Assembly: GCA_020850355.1 (NCBI GenBank)
Contig: JADZEX010000018.1
Span: 1 to 64,000 of the forward strand
Direction of reading: 5' to 3'
Source: Fimbriimonadaceae bacterium
GTDB lineage: Bacteria; Armatimonadota; UBA10988
DNA length: 64,000 bases
Below the pieces are notes generated by a model. The model did no database searches. It was not told the origin of the DNA and saw only the letters and a program-made list of their open reading frames with translations. Below are positions 34,820-42,475 of this stretch, piece by piece (position 1 is the first letter of the stretch; each line of letters begins with the position of its first letter). The translations under genes and the position numbers were made by a program.

Positions 34820-36010
34820 CTAACCCTCCACCGCCGCCAGCGCCGACTGCACGGCCGCGTTCAGCCGGGGCGCCGTATCGGGGCCCAGCGACATCGTGCG
34901 CTCGTAGGCGTACCGCTCCAGCTCGAAGTCGTCGCGCCGCAGCAGGTAGCCGATCTCGTCGCCGGCCAGGCTGATCACGAAGCGGTGCCGGCGGCCCATC
35001 ATGCGCTTCCAGCGGCGCACCAGCGCCGGCTGCGGCTCGCCGGGAATCGCCAGGAAGGTGGCCGGCCCGAGGCCCCAGGCGCTGACCCGGGTGAGGTGCT
35101 CCTCGCTGGAGTCGAACCCCCCGCGGAGCAGGCCTTGGGCGACCGCGGCGCGCAGTTGCGGACTGACCAGCGGCAGCGTCACCTCGCGGGTCGCCACCGC
35201 CAGGTCGGCGTGGTCGACAATCTCCTCAGCGGCCAGCAGCGCGGCGACGGCTTCGTCGGCGACCGCCTGGCCGATCCGGGCGGCCTCGCCGAGCGACTCG
35301 CTGGCCGCCGCCGGGGTCACCATCGCGCCGAGCGCGCCGTTCACGAAGATCGCCGGGCCGCCGAAGGTCTCTTCGACCCGCAGCCGCAGCGCGTGTGCGA
35401 AGTCGGAGCTGATCACGGTGCTGCGGTTGGTCAGCACCTCGGGGTGGCAGCCCCAGTTGATCAACGTCGCCACCCCCCGGCCGCCGACGGTGGCGACGTG
35501 CAGCGCGGCGACGTCCGGGTCGAGGCTCTCGGGGTCGCGCACATTGACTGCCGTGCGCGGCGGCTGGCTGATGCGGGCCAAGGTCAAGAGCGCCGGCTGC
35601 AGCGCCCCGAGGGCTAGCTTGACCGCCGCCGCCGCCCCATCGAGCAGCGTCGCCATGACCTCTGCGGCGACCCCGGAGGTCGCCCCGTCGGGCCCCCAGA
35701 GGCCCAGCGTGTCGGGCCCCGAGTGGGTATGTGTGGCGCAGACCAGCAGGTGCCCCGGCCGCAGGCCGACGCGCGACGCGACCTGATCGGCATCGACGCG
35801 CAGCAGGCCGAGGCAGTCGACGCTCACCAGCGCGACGGTCTGGCGCCCACAGCGCAGCGCCAGGGCGCGCGCCCAGAGCGGGTCGGCGACGCTGCCGGCG
35901 CGGCGGTTACGGCCGAAGCCGGCCAGCCAGCAACCCGGGTCCGGCGTCACCTCGACGGCCGCGGCCCCGGCCTGCAACGAGTGGTGCCGGGTGGCACCGG
36001 GTTCGCCCAT
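34820..36010 (-). CDS. Neutral/alkaline ceramidase-like hydrolase
   Basis: A 396-residue protein with the N-terminal domain of neutral/alkaline ceramidases: VSVDCLG, CATHTHSGPD (THTHSGP at 93-99), and NWGCHPEVL with the zinc-ligand His. The C-terminal immunoglobulin-like domain of true ceramidases is missing and no signal peptide is seen, so it may cut a different amide. Its ATG overlaps the stop of the upstream membrane protein by one base (TAATG), linking it to the membrane cassette. Confidence 0.78.
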   Translation of the reverse strand: MGEPGATRHHSLQAGAAAVEVTPDPGCWLAGFGRNRRAGSVADPLWARALALRCGRQTVALVSVDCLGLLRVDADQVASRVGLRPGHLLVCATHTHSGPDTLGLWGPDGATSGVAAEVMATLLDGAAAAVKLALGALQPALLTLARISQPPRTAVNVRDPESLDPDVAALHVATVGGRGVATLINWGCHPEVLTNRSTVISSDFAHALRLRVEETFGGPAIFVNGALGAMVTPAAASESLGEAARIGQAVADEAVAALLAAEEIVDHADLAVATREVTLPLVSPQLRAAVAQGLLRGGFDSSEEHLTRVSAWGLGPATFLAIPGEPQPALVRRWKRMMGRRHRFVISLAGDEIGYLLRRDDFELERYAYERTMSLGPDTAPRLNAAVQSALAAVEG

Positions 36011-36648
36011 TACTTGAACAACAGCCCGGGCACATCGAGCAGGAACTGAATGCGGTCGATCAGCAGCGAGAAGCGCCCCATCACGGTGCTGCCGAAAATG
36101 GCGCCGAAGGCGATCATCAGCAGCCAGCGCCCGAGCTGCGCGGTGCCGGCGACGGCCTTGTGGCCGTGGCGGAACGAGAAGAAGAAGTAGGCCATCACCG
36201 AGACCAGGGTGACTACGAAGACCAGGTTGCTGAAGACCTGGCCCCAGCTCACCGCAGCCGACGGCCAGAGCGGCACGAACGACGAGGTGACCTGCGGGAA
36301 GACCTGCGTGCTGAACCCGCGGAAGACCTGCCCGGCGCCCAGGCCGAACAACACGCTGATCAGGAAGCGGCTGAGCCAGGCATACTTCGGGAAGAAAACC
36401 GAGTAGAACAGCAGCGCCAGCAGCGGGGCAAAGACCCAGTACCACTGCCCCTCGCGGAGCGGCTGGTACCAGTTCGGTCCCAGGGCATCGTTCCAGGTCA
36501 CGACCACCCCGTAACCGGCGGCGATGCCGATGAAGAGGTGCTCGAAGAAGCGGTAGAGGGCGTTCTCCTTGAAGACCACCGAGAGGATCGCGATGGTCGC
36601 CAGGGCGCCCGTCAGGGTGACCAGCAACTCGACGGTGCGGAGTTCCAT
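36010..36648 (-). CDS. Conserved membrane protein of the DUF6754 cassette
   Basis: A 212-residue protein with about six hydrophobic segments and a conserved-looking YRFFEHLFIGIAAGYG near residue 40. No enzyme motif. The ATG at 36648 follows AGGAGGGC; the longer frame enters the upstream gene. It lies one base after the 292-residue protein. Function unknown; probably part of a membrane complex with its neighbours. Confidence 0.7.
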   Translation of the reverse strand: MELRTVELLVTLTGALATIAILSVVFKENALYRFFEHLFIGIAAGYGVVVTWNDALGPNWYQPLREGQWYWVFAPLLALLFYSVFFPKYAWLSRFLISVLFGLGAGQVFRGFSTQVFPQVTSSFVPLWPSAAVSWGQVFSNLVFVVTLVSVMAYFFFSFRHGHKAVAGTAQLGRWLLMIAFGAIFGSTVMGRFSLLIDRIQFLLDVPGLLFK

Positions 36649-36649
36649 G

Positions 36650-37528
36650 TCAGCCCTCCTCGCCCGCGACTGGCGGCGGTGCCGCGCCGACGCGTTTCTC
36701 GGCCCACACCGCCAGGTTGCCGATGACAATCAGGAACATCACCAGCAGGTGCCCCAGCGACTGCGACCCCATCCGCTGCAGCCCCTTGCCGCGCGGGTTG
36801 CCGAACTCGTCCTTGAACTCGGTCAACTGCTCAAACTGCGCCGCGCCGCCGAGCCCGACCAGCAACCCCTTGATCTGACCCGACTGCAGGTAGGGGTAGC
36901 GCTCCGGACCCATCACCGCGGTGCAGGCTTGGGCCAGCGTGATGTCACCCGAGCAGAACTGGATGTACATGTCGAGCAGCCCGCTGCCCGCGACGTTGTA
37001 CAGCATGCCGACGTCCTTCAAGGTCCGGACGCCCTGCATCAGCGTGAGCTGCGCCACCGGCGTGCCGTTGATGTCTTCCTTGATGGTCCCCGGCAGGTCG
37101 GTCATCATGGCCAGCAGAGTCTTGTCGTAGTTCGGCTTGTAGCCCCAGTTGATCCAGTCGCGGCCGTACTCTTTCTGATGTTTGGCGGCCAGCTTGAAGG
37201 CCACCTGCTGCCCCAGCTTGGCGCCCTGCTGGGCGAACGAGACGATCGCGAACGGGCGGTTCTGGCGCATCAGGTAGTCCATCACCGTGGTCGTCAGCGG
37301 CTCGCACTCGCCCTTCGTGCCGGCCTCCCAGTCGCAGGTGATCACCACCAGCTTGCCAGGCGGCAGCTCGTCGATGGTCGTCTTGAGCTTCTTGGTCGCC
37401 GGCAACGGGACCATCTTGAGGGGCAGCGGGACCTTCAGCGGGACCGCCAGACAGAGCAACGTCAAGGCGGCGATCACCCGCCGGTCGATCTGCCGCAGCC
37501 GCACCAGGAAACGGAGCAGGGAGTCCAT
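36650..37528 (-). CDS. Two-span membrane protein with an outer domain (DUF6754 cassette)
   Basis: A 292-residue protein with hydrophobic segments near residues 18-37 and 261-280 enclosing a hydrophilic domain of about 220 residues. That domain has CDWEAGTKGECEP and WGYKPNYDKTLLAM, with no known catalytic motif. The cysteine pair could form a disulfide if the domain is outside. ATG 37528 is preferred to GTG 37534, since GGGAG is well placed for it. Function unknown. Confidence 0.68.
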   Translation of the reverse strand: MDSLLRFLVRLRQIDRRVIAALTLLCLAVPLKVPLPLKMVPLPATKKLKTTIDELPPGKLVVITCDWEAGTKGECEPLTTTVMDYLMRQNRPFAIVSFAQQGAKLGQQVAFKLAAKHQKEYGRDWINWGYKPNYDKTLLAMMTDLPGTIKEDINGTPVAQLTLMQGVRTLKDVGMLYNVAGSGLLDMYIQFCSGDITLAQACTAVMGPERYPYLQSGQIKGLLVGLGGAAQFEQLTEFKDEFGNPRGKGLQRMGSQSLGHLLVMFLIVIGNLAVWAEKRVGAAPPPVAGEEG

Positions 37529-37530
37529 CG

Positions 37531-38379
37531 TCACATCTCCCGGAAGTAGCTGCCCTGTTCCAGGCTCAGCCAGACCCGCAGCGAAAGCGCGAAGCCACCG
37601 ACCGCCGAGCCGAACAGAATGCCCCGGGCCGCCGCCGTGTTGGGGACGGTCAGCAGCCAGTTCTGGATGTTCTCGATGCGCAGCAGCGCCAGCGCATGGT
37701 CTTCGGGGATCCAGGCGGTCAGGGCCTGCCCGGCGGGCACCTGGCCGAGCATCACCAAGAAGGCGACCACCGTCATCAGGCCGGCCTCGACCGTGCGGAT
37801 GCGGAAGGCACGGTAGGCGGCCGTCACGATGAAGAAGCCGAGCAGCGCGAAGGTGGTGGCATCGAGGGAGTTGAGGAGCCCGCGGAAGAGCACCTCAAAC
37901 ACCCCCGTCGCGAACGACACGCGGGTCGCGCCGTCCTCAACCGGCTGCGCCAGCAGCCCGAACACCAGCATCCCGAGGAAGCCCAGGAAGAAGGCCACGG
38001 AGTTGATGGCCCCGCCACCCCCGCGGGCCAGCCGCCGGCCGTGGACCATCACCAGATTGATGATCCCGAGGCCGATACTGAAGCCGCTGAGGACCAGCAG
38101 GAAGTTGCCGAGGGGCTGCACGTAGCCCTGCACCGGGTCCCAGCGCTCGGGACAGAAGAAGTCGAGGCTGTAGAACAGCCCGGCCAAGAAGGTGCAGACC
38201 ACGGTCAGCCGGCGCCGCGCCGCCGAGTTGAGCTTCTGGAGCACCGCCAGCACGCCGCAGAAGGCGAGGATGCTGGCCAGCACCGCGAGCCAGAACCAGA
38301 CGCCAGTCAGGGGGCAGAAGAGGTGCTCGGAGAACCACGTCTGGAACAGTCCGGTGACGACTTGCGGTTGATCGCCCAT
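37531..38379 (-). CDS. Polytopic membrane protein (DUF6754 cassette)
   Basis: A 282-residue protein with seven or eight hydrophobic segments and short loops. A motif FYSLDFFCPERWDPVQGYVQPL lies near residue 70. The ATG at 38379 follows GGAGGGG and shares a base with the upstream stop (TGATG). Function unknown. It may form the membrane core of the cassette. Confidence 0.68.
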   Translation of the reverse strand: MGDQPQVVTGLFQTWFSEHLFCPLTGVWFWLAVLASILAFCGVLAVLQKLNSAARRRLTVVCTFLAGLFYSLDFFCPERWDPVQGYVQPLGNFLLVLSGFSIGLGIINLVMVHGRRLARGGGGAINSVAFFLGFLGMLVFGLLAQPVEDGATRVSFATGVFEVLFRGLLNSLDATTFALLGFFIVTAAYRAFRIRTVEAGLMTVVAFLVMLGQVPAGQALTAWIPEDHALALLRIENIQNWLLTVPNTAAARGILFGSAVGGFALSLRVWLSLEQGSYFREM

Positions 38380-39158
38380 CAGGCCCCTCCCGGCTTCAAG
38401 AACTGGGCCAGCAGATTGGCTTCCTCGCCCTGCACCAAGGTCAGCAGCAGACCGAGCACAATCAGGACCAGCAGCGTCAGCTTGACGTAGTCCTGACCCA
38501 CCAGACTGCCGGTCAGCACCGGCTCCCGGCTGAGCAGCGCGGTGGTGGCGTAGTACTCTTCGCCGAGAATGGTGTAGTCGCAAGTCGCCAGGAAGAAGGG
38601 GATCTGGTTGCTGTCGGGGGTGGCCGCGATCTGCACCGCGCCGACGGCCTGGCCGTTCTCGGCCATCACCAGCGACTCGGCGGCGAAGGTGCCGAAGAAG
38701 AAGTTGGCGCCGACCTGCTCGCGGTGCATCAGCCCAACCACGCCCGCCGCGTAGGCGAACTGGGCGTCGGAGAGGAACCGGATGTCCTGGGCGTTGAAGG
38801 CCTCCTCGGCGCCGACGGCGACATGGGCCTCGCGCTGCACCTCTTCGATCACCGGGATCAGCATCGCGCTGACGGTGGGCACAATGACTCGCGTCCGGAA
38901 GCGTGCCGCGAGCTGGGTGACGTGCCCAATCACGCTGACGGCCTGCAAGGTGGTGATGTCGACCCCGCCGAGGCCGATGCTGAAGAGCACCGGCCGGCCG
39001 AGCTCGACGGCGCGGCCGACGACCTCCTCGATGGCGTCGATCCCCGGCAGGCGGCGGATGAACAGCTCCCGGCCCCGTTTGGCGCGCTGGATGTTGAGGA
39101 TCACCAGCAGCGCCAACAGCGGCAGCAGGATCCGGGCGGCGGCATTGGCCGTTTCCAT
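38379..39158 (-). CDS. DUF6754-like protein
   Basis: A 259-residue protein with one N-terminal (about 8-25) and one C-terminal (about 225-245) hydrophobic segment and a soluble middle of some 190 residues. The central GLGGVDITTLQAVSVIGH and MHREQVGANFFFGTF match my recollection of the DUF6754 family, which has no known function. It is coupled at both ends to its neighbours by TGATG overlaps. The family name is a moderate-confidence call. Confidence 0.65.
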   Translation of the reverse strand: METANAAARILLPLLALLVILNIQRAKRGRELFIRRLPGIDAIEEVVGRAVELGRPVLFSIGLGGVDITTLQAVSVIGHVTQLAARFRTRVIVPTVSAMLIPVIEEVQREAHVAVGAEEAFNAQDIRFLSDAQFAYAAGVVGLMHREQVGANFFFGTFAAESLVMAENGQAVGAVQIAATPDSNQIPFFLATCDYTILGEEYYATTALLSREPVLTGSLVGQDYVKLTLLVLIVLGLLLTLVQGEEANLLAQFLKPGGA

Positions 39159-39427
39159 CAGGCGGCCCTATCCTCTCTGGCGAGTGCTTCGAGGCGGTCC
39201 AGGAAGGCCTCGAACAATACTGGATCTTGAAGCATTGCGGCCAGCTCCTGACAACGCTGCAGCCCTAGCAACGGCGCGATCAGCGGCGTCCCGGCGAGCA
39301 CGGCGTGGGCGGCGATGTTGCGCACCGGGCGGTGCAACTCGAGCGCGAAGACCGTCGGCACGACCAGCCCGCGTTCGGCGACCCATTGCGCCGCGCTCTC
39401 CAAGGGGGCTGGCAGGACGGTGGTCAC
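39158..39427 (-). CDS. Small soluble protein of unknown function
   Basis: An 89-residue protein rich in Leu and Ala, with no membrane segment or known motif; mostly helical by eye. It begins at a GTG that overlaps the upstream stop (GTGA), and its own stop overlaps the DUF6754-like start. I do not recognise it. Confidence 0.55.
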   Translation of the reverse strand: MTTVLPAPLESAAQWVAERGLVVPTVFALELHRPVRNIAAHAVLAGTPLIAPLLGLQRCQELAAMLQDPVLFEAFLDRLEALAREDRAA

Positions 39428-39894
39428 GGGGCCACCTCCGGCCAGGTGCGGCGGGCGGTGGCGTGCTGCGCAACCAGCGTCCGAACCTGCTCGGCGTGGT
39501 GGCCCCAGAGCAGCAGCAGCCCCCGCGGCAGGACCCGCGACGGGCGGCCCTCACGGCTCAAGAACAGCCCGTCGGGTCGCTCCCAGACCGAGGCGACCTG
39601 TTCCCAGGTGAGTTCGCGTCGGCCGCCCCAGCCGTCGCGCCGGGCGCCTGTGGCGGTCAGGCGATAGACCGCGGGGAGCAGGAAATCGCCCGCGGCCAGG
39701 AGCACCGCCGCGGCGGCGATCAGGGTGTAGAGTGGGTGGCCGAAGGCCAGTTGGACGGCGACGCTGACAAGGCCGCCGTAGAGCACGGTGCCGACCACCG
39801 CCAGGGGTCTGCGGCGTGCCGGATGGACCACCCATTCCAGCAGCACCGGCTCCGCAGGCAGCGCAGTGGCAGTGTCAGTCGGATCGCGCTCCAC
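39424..39894 (-). CDS. Membrane protein with possible bacterial PH-like domain
   Basis: A 156-residue protein with two hydrophobic segments (about 31-73) followed by a short basic/beta region, GRRELTWEQVASVWERPDG, that resembles membrane-anchored bacterial PH-like domains. It starts at GTG 39894, right behind a strong promoter, and is the first gene of the minus-strand membrane cassette. The PH-like call is tentative. Confidence 0.55.
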   Translation of the reverse strand: MERDPTDTATALPAEPVLLEWVVHPARRRPLAVVGTVLYGGLVSVAVQLAFGHPLYTLIAAAAVLLAAGDFLLPAVYRLTATGARRDGWGGRRELTWEQVASVWERPDGLFLSREGRPSRVLPRGLLLLWGHHAEQVRTLVAQHATARRTWPEVAP

Positions 39895-39922: not shown

Positions 39923-39952
39923 ATTGTACCGCGTCGGCGGCGCCGCTGTCAA
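39923..39952 (-). promoter_or_regulatory. Sigma-70-type promoter for the DUF6754 cassette
   Basis: On the minus strand TTGACA (39952-39947) and TACAAT (39928-39923) are 18 bases apart. It is the best promoter in the window: -35 perfect, -10 five of six. It would drive the eight genes from 39894 to 33223. Confidence 0.78.
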
Positions 39953-40066: not shown

Positions 40067-40405
40067 ATGATTGAAAAACGCCCGCCCGCGGTGCTGCTGG
40101 CGGCAGCCTGGCAGGTGCTGCTGGGCGTGACCTGGCTGGTGCAGGCCTTCCGGCTGGACAGCCCGATCTTTCTAATCGCCCTCTGCATTTGGGCGATCTA
40201 CCACCTGGCCACGGCGGTCGGCCTCTACCAGTTGCAGGAGTGGGCGCGCCGCCGGGCGGTGCAGATGGCGGTCTTCGACATTCTCGGCGTGCTGCAGGGC
40301 CTGCTGGCCTATCCCTCGCCGTTCGGCGCGCTGGTCACGCTGGGCATGCCGATCTACACGCTGACCGTGCTCAACGACCCCGCGCTGAAGCAGCGCTTCT
40401 CGTGA
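40067..40405 (+). CDS. Small membrane protein of unknown function
   Basis: A 112-residue protein with about three or four hydrophobic segments (about 10-30, 34-56, 66-88, 88-103) and a short charged C-terminus. It has a GAGGA ribosome site. No known domain. It is followed after 132 bases by the secreted metallopeptidase. Confidence 0.6.
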   Translation: MIEKRPPAVLLAAAWQVLLGVTWLVQAFRLDSPIFLIALCIWAIYHLATAVGLYQLQEWARRRAVQMAVFDILGVLQGLLAYPSPFGALVTLGMPIYTLTVLNDPALKQRFS

Positions 40406-40537
40406 GCCAGCGCCGCCAGCGGGCGTAACGCGGCCGTCAGGCGGCGTTCAGAGCTTCGTAGGCCGTGGGCAGCAACGCCGCGCCGGGGGCCGGCGTACCG
40501 CATGTGTGGCGGGCGATTCCGCCGCGGGAGGTGTCCG

Positions 40538-42475
40538 ATGGGGTCGCTCGTGTCTAGTCTGCGCCGCCTGGTCGGGGCGGTCGGGGTGCTGGTCCTGACG
40601 CTCGGACCGGCCCACGCCGTGCTGCCACCGCTGGTCGATCACACCTTCGACGACGGCGAGCGGAAGGTCGAGCTGAAGGTCCCGGCGAGCTGGACCGTGC
40701 AGGCGGCCGGCAACGGGCTGCAGGCCTGGAAGGACCCCGCGACCGACCTCTTCGGCGCGGCGGTGCTGAGCTTCCACGAGTATGACAAAGCCCCCACCCC
40801 GGACGCCTTCCTGGACGGCGCGCTGGCGACCTTGGCCAAGCAGTACAGCAACTGGAAGGTGATCGCCCGGGTGAAGCCCAAGGACCGCCCGCGGGTGCGC
40901 CTGGCGACCGTCGGGTTCAGCCTGTTCGGGTTCCCCTGCCGCGGCTATGTGATGGCCGTGATCGGCCAGGAGACCGGCACGCTGGGCTTCTGCTACGCCG
41001 AGACGGTGGCCGCGCGGCAGCAGCGGCTGGACGAGCTGGTGCAGTTGCTGGTGGCCGGCAGCTACGGCGCCTACCCGGTCCGCGGCGAGGCCGACAGCGA
41101 AGGCGCCCAGGCGCAACAGCAGGCGATCGAAAAGCTCTACGGCGGTGCCAGCAAGGACTTCCAGGAGCTGTGGGACGAGTTGGGCAAGGACAAGTCCCTC
41201 GATGCCGACTTCCTGGGCCAGGCTGGCACCGATCAGCCGGCGCTGCGCAACCTCAAGAACTTCCTGGCGCAGTACCTGCCGAGCCGGCCGCGCGAACGCG
41301 TCAAGGACCTCAAGGTCTACTGCGTGCCGACCACGATCTTCAACGCCCAGGCGCTCGGCCGCAACGAGTCCGGGCCAGGCTTCGTGGTCTTCTACACCGG
41401 CCTGACGCGGCCGTTCCGGTTCCTCGCTCAGCACTACTGCCATCTGCGCGCCAAGGGCCTCCCGCCGGCGCAGCTCAGCGAGCCGTTGGTCAGTTACAGC
41501 GAACGGCTGGCCGAGGCCGTCTTGAAGCAGACGGCGCTGCCGCCGCCCGGCGCGGTGAATCTCGCCAACGACGCCGAGTTGGCGCGTTACGAGAAGACCT
41601 TCTACTCGATGATCGGCCTGGTGATGGCCCACGAGATGGCGCACTACTACTCGCGCCACGGCGAGTCCGGGCAAGATCCCAGCGACCCGTTCAGCGTACA
41701 GCAGCGCGAGATCGACGCCGACGCCGCGGCCATCGCCAACATCCAGAGCGTGGCCGATGGCACGACCGACGTCTGGGAAGGCGGCGTGATCCACGCCTTC
41801 GGCTTCCTGGCGACCGTCGACAACGTCGCCAAGAAGCTCAGCGGCGAGAAGCGGACCGAGCCGGAGTACACCCGCTCGCATCCGCTGGGCACCACCCGGT
41901 TGAAGTTGGCGACCGCCAAGCTGGGCGTCGACGATTACCAGATGCGCAACGACCCCTGGACGCAGAGCAAGATCCTCGAGACCAGCGACTCCGGGGTGGT
42001 GGTGGTCGGCGGCACTGGGGCGAAGGCTGGCGCGGCGGGCACCTTCAAGCATCCGCAGTCGGGGGTGGTCTTCACCTTCCCCGAAGGGTGGGCCGGGCAG
42101 TACGACCCCGACAGCAATGTCCTGACCATCCGCTCCCAGGGCGGCGACAACTTCCCGCTGGCGCTGTATAGCTGCGGCGGCGAGTACTCCTCGCCGAAGG
42201 CGGTGACGCAGGAGATCCTGGGCGAGCTCAAGAAGAGCGCGCAGGGCTTCCAAATCACCCAGGATGCGCCCTTCGACAGCGGCAATGCCAACCTGAAGGT
42301 CCACCTGACGATCGCCAACGGCAAGTTCCCGGCCGGCGACCTGGCGGCGGTGGTGCTCGGCATCCGCTCACCGAAGCTGTACCACGGCGTGCTGCTGATG
42401 ACTCCGCCGAAGCGCCTGCAGCAAGACCTCGCGGCGTTCGACAAGCTGATCACGAGCATGCAGTTCGGCAACTGA
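40538..42475 (+). CDS. Secreted HExxH (M48-like) metallopeptidase
   Basis: A 645-residue exported protein. Residues 1-27 are a signal peptide. The catalytic zinc motif is HEMAH (HExxH) in VMAHEMAHYYSRH, followed by a later QREIDADAAAIAN whose acidic residue could be the third ligand, as in M48 peptidases. The C-terminal third, after SHPLGTTRL, is a separate beta-rich domain with no clear family. The ATG at 40538 follows GGGAGG. Substrate and target are unknown. It is 15 bases ahead of the next gene. Confidence 0.78.
   Translation: MGSLVSSLRRLVGAVGVLVLTLGPAHAVLPPLVDHTFDDGERKVELKVPASWTVQAAGNGLQAWKDPATDLFGAAVLSFHEYDKAPTPDAFLDGALATLAKQYSNWKVIARVKPKDRPRVRLATVGFSLFGFPCRGYVMAVIGQETGTLGFCYAETVAARQQRLDELVQLLVAGSYGAYPVRGEADSEGAQAQQQAIEKLYGGASKDFQELWDELGKDKSLDADFLGQAGTDQPALRNLKNFLAQYLPSRPRERVKDLKVYCVPTTIFNAQALGRNESGPGFVVFYTGLTRPFRFLAQHYCHLRAKGLPPAQLSEPLVSYSERLAEAVLKQTALPPPGAVNLANDAELARYEKTFYSMIGLVMAHEMAHYYSRHGESGQDPSDPFSVQQREIDADAAAIANIQSVADGTTDVWEGGVIHAFGFLATVDNVAKKLSGEKRTEPEYTRSHPLGTTRLKLATAKLGVDDYQMRNDPWTQSKILETSDSGVVVVGGTGAKAGAAGTFKHPQSGVVFTFPEGWAGQYDPDSNVLTIRSQGGDNFPLALYSCGGEYSSPKAVTQEILGELKKSAQGFQITQDAPFDSGNANLKVHLTIANGKFPAGDLAAVVLGIRSPKLYHGVLLMTPPKRLQQDLAAFDKLITSMQFGN

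Follow-up and report, generated by a model that had tools for sequence, protein, structure and literature searches.

A conserved DUF6754 membrane cassette and a GlmL/MutL-type ATPase as candidate parts of an undescribed bacterial machine

In this study, we analyzed a six-gene cassette (g1 to g6) on the minus strand, positions 36010-39894, of a 64,000-nucleotide stretch of contig JADZEX010000018.1 from a Fimbriimonadaceae bacterium of the phylum Armatimonadota (this whole stretch is hereafter called the window). One of its products, g3, belongs to the family DUF6754, and the DUF6754 system occurs almost throughout two phyla and in about a dozen further ones. Across Armatimonadota genomes, DUF6754 tends to vanish together with two further proteins, a GlmL/MutL-type ATPase and a barrel-sandwich (BSH) protein. 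As the best explanation, we tentatively propose that the cassette supplies the membrane components of a hitherto undescribed machine with eight components, which is ATPase-activated and two-sided.

Conservation and distribution of the cassette

Six coupled genes with a DUF6754-like member had been described in the first-pass annotation, and all of the open reading frames (ORFs) were located where it had placed them. Their coupling is as tight as claimed, with junctions that either overlap by 1-4 nt or leave gaps of 1-2 nt: g1 and g2 share a 4-nt overlap, TGATG forms the junction at both g2/g3 and g3/g4, and g4/g5 and g5/g6 are separated by 1-2 nt. A survey of gene neighborhoods, scored with the six proteins and profiles made from them, demonstrated that the cassette is not scattered in other genomes. 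Of 39 Armatimonadota loci, 36 preserve the order g3-g4-g5-g6, as do 74 of 80 named loci; the latter are the loci listed by a named-contig scan out of 488 confirmed stretches, and all counts of named loci refer to them. Among the six failures, three (L095, L103, and L110) stop at a contig edge after g5 and three (L094, L129, and L136) do not. The complete order from g1 to g6, with intervening genes ignored, is found in 27 of the 39 same-phylum loci and 32 of the 80 named loci, and g1 homologs were detected in 39 of the latter. Thus, g3-g6 are the core of the cassette, and the module of g1 and g2 is more loosely attached. In other phyla, g2 adjoins g1 or sits near the gene of the partner ATPase, and four loci (L108, L114, L120, and L140) carry two or three cores in tandem. 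Conserved order lends good support to the earlier proposal of a multi-subunit membrane complex, in that the cassette is a conserved functional unit whose products may assemble physically. That proposal was incomplete, given the looser g1-g2 module and the ATPase and BSH that also belong to the system.

DUF6754 was detected in 252 of 291 Armatimonadota genomes (~87%) and in 96 of 98 genomes (98%) of the phylum of locus L113, labeled Cloacimonadota, and in none of 14 control genomes. The loci listed also carry the labels Poribacteria, Zixiibacteriota, WOR-3, Stahlbacteria, Fermentibacteria, Coatesbacteria, Edwardsbacteria, Eisenbacteria, Mcinerneyibacteriota, Planctomycetota, Bdellovibrionales, Dadabacteria, and Bacillota (such as Symbiobacterium); these labels are the submitters', mostly for metagenome-assembled genomes, and individual ones may be wrong. 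Viral carriage was also considered and rejected, as IMG/VR contained no confirmed DUF6754 relative.

At the level of protein families, g3 is a clear DUF6754 member with two membrane helices, as the annotation had suggested (PF20539, 293.4 bits, E 1.6e-87, gathering cut-off 27). None of the other five cassette proteins reached the cut-off of any Pfam family, no NCBIfam family was matched above cut-off by any of the six, and a PHROGs scan of the cassette proteins gave no match. The homologs of g4, g5, and g6 have no consistent Pfam family either. For these three proteins, which are membrane proteins as predicted (Table 1), no transport or secretion family was hit above cut-off or appeared consistently in homologs, which does not imply that such a relationship is excluded. 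An anti-phage defense role found no support, as none of the eight proteins scanned matched PADLOC models. The product of g1 has a membrane hairpin, and its description as "PH-like" is weakly supported: bPH_6 was matched by 2 of 33 homologs (best E 0.0016) and not by the window protein. The small g2 is soluble, as stated. Several residues are highly conserved in these families, including W97, R124, and G125 of g1 (nearly invariant), the loop SAAYRAFRxRSxEA of g4, and T18, N29, Y154, and G173 of g6 (invariant across 49 sequences).

Some DUF6754 loci show unusual architectures. In second DUF6754 loci (L060:8746-10488, L086:6272-7882, and L088:7352-9643), g4 has a large insertion after its first transmembrane (TM) helix, and that of L086 weakly matches sugar phosphorylase/mannosidase models. 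The DUF6754 protein of L083:7753-8793 (minus strand) begins with a zinc-ribbon-like stretch, and no g4-g6 were found nearby. In addition, those of L169:546-4046, L115:12958-16065, and L157:3433-6477 have N-terminal extensions of ~750-900 aa, mostly without a Pfam match.

Partner ATPase and barrel-sandwich protein

To find recurrent neighbors, 1906 genes from 119 loci were clustered. Besides g1-g6, only two clusters occurred in more than 10 loci. The first (19 loci) is a GlmL/MutL-type ASKHA ATPase (PF13941 MutL; the L150 copy scores 419 bits), and the second (BSH, 20 loci) is weakly similar to biotin/lipoyl and RnfC barrel-sandwich domains. Other recurrent neighbors, read from sequence as RecO, GlmU, Prs, glycine cleavage, and shikimate genes, look lineage-specific. 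In L130 (Fermentibacteria), the ATPase and BSH genes lie between g2 and g3, and in G213 (L050), which belongs to the same order as the source genome, a mere 2 nt separate the g6 stop codon from the start of the ATPase gene. The source genome encodes both proteins on other contigs: the ATPase at G000:C28:17082-18857 and BSH at G000:C62:1439-2542, with 60% and 47% identity, respectively, to their L150 counterparts. Its ATPase scores 414 bits on PF13941 and contains the stretches DCGSTTTK and DIGGATTD, of the kind seen in ASKHA phosphate loops. On the biotin/lipoyl carrier model of Pfam, the L150 homolog of BSH reached 22.7 bits (cut-off 22.1) and the source-genome copy matched no family; inspection of BSH by eye revealed no MKM-type carrier motif. 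Divergent homologs outside the cassette have ATPase and BSH fused in one ORF of ~970-1070 aa (L190:1824-4961, L191:4237-7155, L192:7211-10234, and L193:7196-10408), and the paralogous ATPase-BSH loci L190-L197 have no recognizable neighbor in common. On contig C28 of the source genome (L170), the ATPase gene is preceded by genes whose sequences suggest the C-terminal part of BamA and a protein of the Skp/OmpH type.

A check of co-occurrence, as recommended by the annotation, indicated that DUF6754, ATPase, and BSH tend to vanish together. With thresholds of E 1e-80 or better for the ATPase and 1e-20 or better for BSH, the three were called in 252, 253, and 264 of the 291 Armatimonadota genomes, respectively, with all three in 235 and none in 20. 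Fisher p values were 5e-17 for DUF6754-ATPase, 9e-15 for DUF6754-BSH, and 3e-20 for ATPase-BSH, ignoring phylogeny and assembly gaps, a possible source of joint absence. Low contamination and a completeness of 91-99% are recorded for nine of the 20 triple-absent genomes (G001, G002, G003, G046, G048, G049, G051, G133, and G134), and these fall in families f3, f10, and f17. Moreover, several members have DUF6754 and the ATPase at unlinked positions (in G021, a single-contig genome, ~2.7 Mb lie between them), so neither linkage alone nor one deletion accounts for the joint loss. Among 24 genomes with another or no phylum label, taken from the named loci with the aim that 22 carry labels other than Armatimonadota, the ATPase was found in 23 and BSH in 21; the ATPase of G313 is a relative with 33% identity.

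The ATPase has the whole PF13941 domain in common with GlmL/MutL, the accessory protein of adenosylcobalamin-dependent glutamate mutase. One alternative is that it reactivates a B12 enzyme or another radical enzyme in the conventional way and is tied to the cassette indirectly, through shared ancestry or lifestyle. Besides its PF13941 score, this explanation can draw on the 220 bits of the L150 homolog (the copy scored here, rather than that of the source genome) on the NCBIfam model NF040745 for GlmL; that value is below the equivalog cut-off of 475. The partner ATPase is also longer (~590-625 aa versus 450 profile positions), pairs with BSH, is encoded within or close to the cassette in 19 loci, and occurs in genomes mostly without the mutases tested. 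The glutamate mutase large subunit (PF06368) was found in only 2 of the 291 Armatimonadota genomes, both weakly, with the Haloferax control matched, and methylmalonyl-CoA mutase in 43, versus the ATPase in 253; neither was found in the source genome. Glutamate and methylmalonyl-CoA mutases are therefore not supported as its clients in Armatimonadota, and we consider the reactivase explanation the least probable of those weighed here.

Fold models and a tentative mechanism

Confident AlphaFold2 models of g3 and g5 (mean predicted local distance difference test scores of 94.4 and 95.3) both consist of a TM helix, a Rossmann-like domain, and a second TM helix. Homology between g3 and g5 was rejected (hhalign probability 2.5%), as was that between g4 and g6 (1.8%). 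Foldseek searches with the two models gave no match at E 0.001. Searches of PDB sequences with single sequences of g3, g5, and the ATPase revealed no known structure; profiles of g3 and g6 had no match there, and those of g4 and g5 gave implausible matches only (E ≥0.66). In VIA-align comparisons, g3 matched transhydrogenase 9l76_A (Z 10.4, root-mean-square deviation (rmsd) 3.2, 137 residues aligned), CODH epsilon 9c0r_C (Z 10.2, rmsd 2.9, 133 aligned), GmhA 2x3y_C (Z 10.2, rmsd 4.2, 157 aligned), and the MthK RCK domain 4ei2_B (Z 9.9, rmsd 2.8, 115 aligned), and g5 matched 1kjn_A (Z 9.0, rmsd 4.0, 139 aligned) and CODH epsilon 9c0q_C (Z 8.9, rmsd 3.0, 138 aligned).

The RCK match is relevant to the main rival of our proposal, a sensor or signaling complex in which g3 would bind a nucleotide or other cytosolic ligand and signal via g4/g6 to the outer g5 domain or to extracytoplasmic FN3- or propeller-like extensions, with the ATPase as a switch rather than a motor. 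RCK/TrkA-type domains of ion channels are likewise Rossmann-like domains tied to a membrane protein, and the lineage-variable extensions of the cassette proteins (FN3-like regions below cut-off and the weakly sugar-enzyme-like g4 insertion of L086) are of a kind often seen in sensors. However, the top matches of g3 are effectively tied, RCK being inseparable within 1 Z unit from the unrelated transhydrogenase, CODH epsilon, and GmhA; g3 has no PDB sequence match and carries two TM helices of its own, and the recurrent neighbors of the cassette include no effector, kinase, or regulator. We regard a sensor as unlikely, though it deserves more credit than the other alternatives.

It seems that the g3 domain is cytosolic and the g5 domain outside, because TM1 of g3 is followed by positive charge and preceded in L130 by an apparent signal peptide (read from sequence) and an FN3-like region (in L113, the fn3 match is under the Pfam cut-off), and because a conserved DRR lies ahead of TM1 of g5. 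In g3, G62, Q133, G156, E161, Q176, Q185, D194, and E201 are invariant or nearly so. In the model, its conserved polar residues fall largely at strand ends and helix starts, the customary ligand edge of Rossmann folds; D223 and K226 are near the start of TM2.

The ASKHA activators that serve glutamate mutase, diol dehydratase, and hydroxyacyl-CoA dehydratase switch on or reset their client enzymes at the expense of ATP. The DUF6754 complex is the sole consistent companion found for the ATPase and BSH, and the simplest interpretation makes this complex their client. In the proposed machine, g4 and g6 would form the membrane core, with the g3 domain on the cytosolic face, presenting its invariant polar residues at the ligand-binding edge of the sheet, and the g5 domain on the outer face. 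The ATPase, with BSH as adaptor, may act from the cytosol on the g3 domain and, by analogy with ASKHA activases, spend ATP on activating, resetting, or gating the membrane complex. The complex might then relay a ligand, an ion, or a conformational signal across the membrane, or move something in a transport step, and g1 and g2 would be accessory.

Several points weigh against this proposal. The fold searches, which depend on predicted models, single out no family for g3 or g5 among the matches listed and hence name no ligand, and the relay is a guess, since neither g4 nor g6 looks like a known transporter. A total of 14 genomes have the ATPase without DUF6754 and 13 the reverse, many of them fragmented, and G078 (94% complete) has DUF6754 without ATPase or BSH. 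Ornithine or lysine aminomutases might be alternative clients of the ATPase. A biosynthetic or secretion apparatus for lipid, polymer, or protein, with the complex as a membrane enzyme or channel, would also account for polytopic g4 and g6, domains probably on both faces, and a coupled ATPase, and g3 resembles several sugar-handling Rossmann folds (GmhA and MurG). The recurrent neighbors of the cassette include no genes for polymers or secretion, and its core parts, DUF6754 aside, reached no Pfam cut-off and gave no PDB-sequence or PADLOC match; we consider such an apparatus improbable, only slightly less so than the reactivase.

Locus context and significance

The coordinates of the cassette features are given in Table 1. 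The claim that the strongest promoter of the window lies ahead of the cassette was borne out at the level of a sigma70 consensus: the site at 39952-39923 is the best of three sites scoring at least 9 in the 64 kb, and two sigma70-like sites were observed within 33-43 kb versus 0.4 expected.

Table 1. Features of the DUF6754 cassette in the window
Feature	Position	Strand	Description
g1	39424-39894	-	156 aa; membrane hairpin and soluble domain, weakly PH-like
g2	39158-39427	-	89 aa; soluble; no database family
g3	38379-39158	-	259 aa; DUF6754; TM helix, Rossmann-like domain (probably cytosolic), TM helix
g4	37531-38379	-	282 aa; polytopic, ~7 hydrophobic segments; no Pfam family
g5	36650-37528	-	292 aa; two hydrophobic segments: TM helix, Rossmann-like domain (probably extracytoplasmic), TM helix; no Pfam family
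g6	36010-36648	-	212 aa; polytopic, several hydrophobic segments; no Pfam family
Sigma70-like promoter TTGACA-18-TACAAT	39923-39952	-	consensus match only, 11/12 positions

Downstream, the gene at 34820-36010 (minus strand) overlaps the g6 stop by TAATG, so the transcript may extend past g6. Its product is weakly similar to neutral/alkaline ceramidase (E 2.3e-5, under the Pfam cut-off). As a query, it had no match in the 39 same-phylum loci and is thus probably a local addition to the operon. The upstream genes at 40067-40405 and 40502-42475 also had no match in these loci; the latter (plus strand) encodes a 657-aa protein with an M48-type HEMAHY stretch (Pfam M48, 19.6 bits, cut-off 20.3). 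The source genome comprises 6.67 Mb in 117 contigs and is 95% complete.

With regard to known systems, g3 is an unambiguous member of PF20539, whereas that entry describes a domain of unknown function without mention of a complex or partners. DUF6754, PF20539, and PF13941 were not found named in the open-access papers searched (most subscription papers being outside this coverage), and nothing on the DUF6754 system was apparent among the papers retrieved for GlmL, MutL, or glutamate mutase. None of the searches turned up a known system with this set of parts. It is possible, though somewhat more doubtful than the eight-component machine as such, that an activase-type ASKHA ATPase and a BSH adaptor power a membrane complex with Rossmann-fold domains on both sides, a new kind of machine that would have escaped notice owing to the annotation of its ATPase as an accessory to glutamate mutase.

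The co-loss of the ATPase with DUF6754 yields a testable list of partners and suggests that, in these phyla, the annotation "methylaspartate mutase accessory protein GlmL" misleads. Of the four core families, one is a DUF and the other three match nothing in Pfam. Retention of DUF6754 in ~87% of Armatimonadota genomes and in 98% of the Cloacimonadota-side sample implies that the system probably has a basic role in these bacteria.

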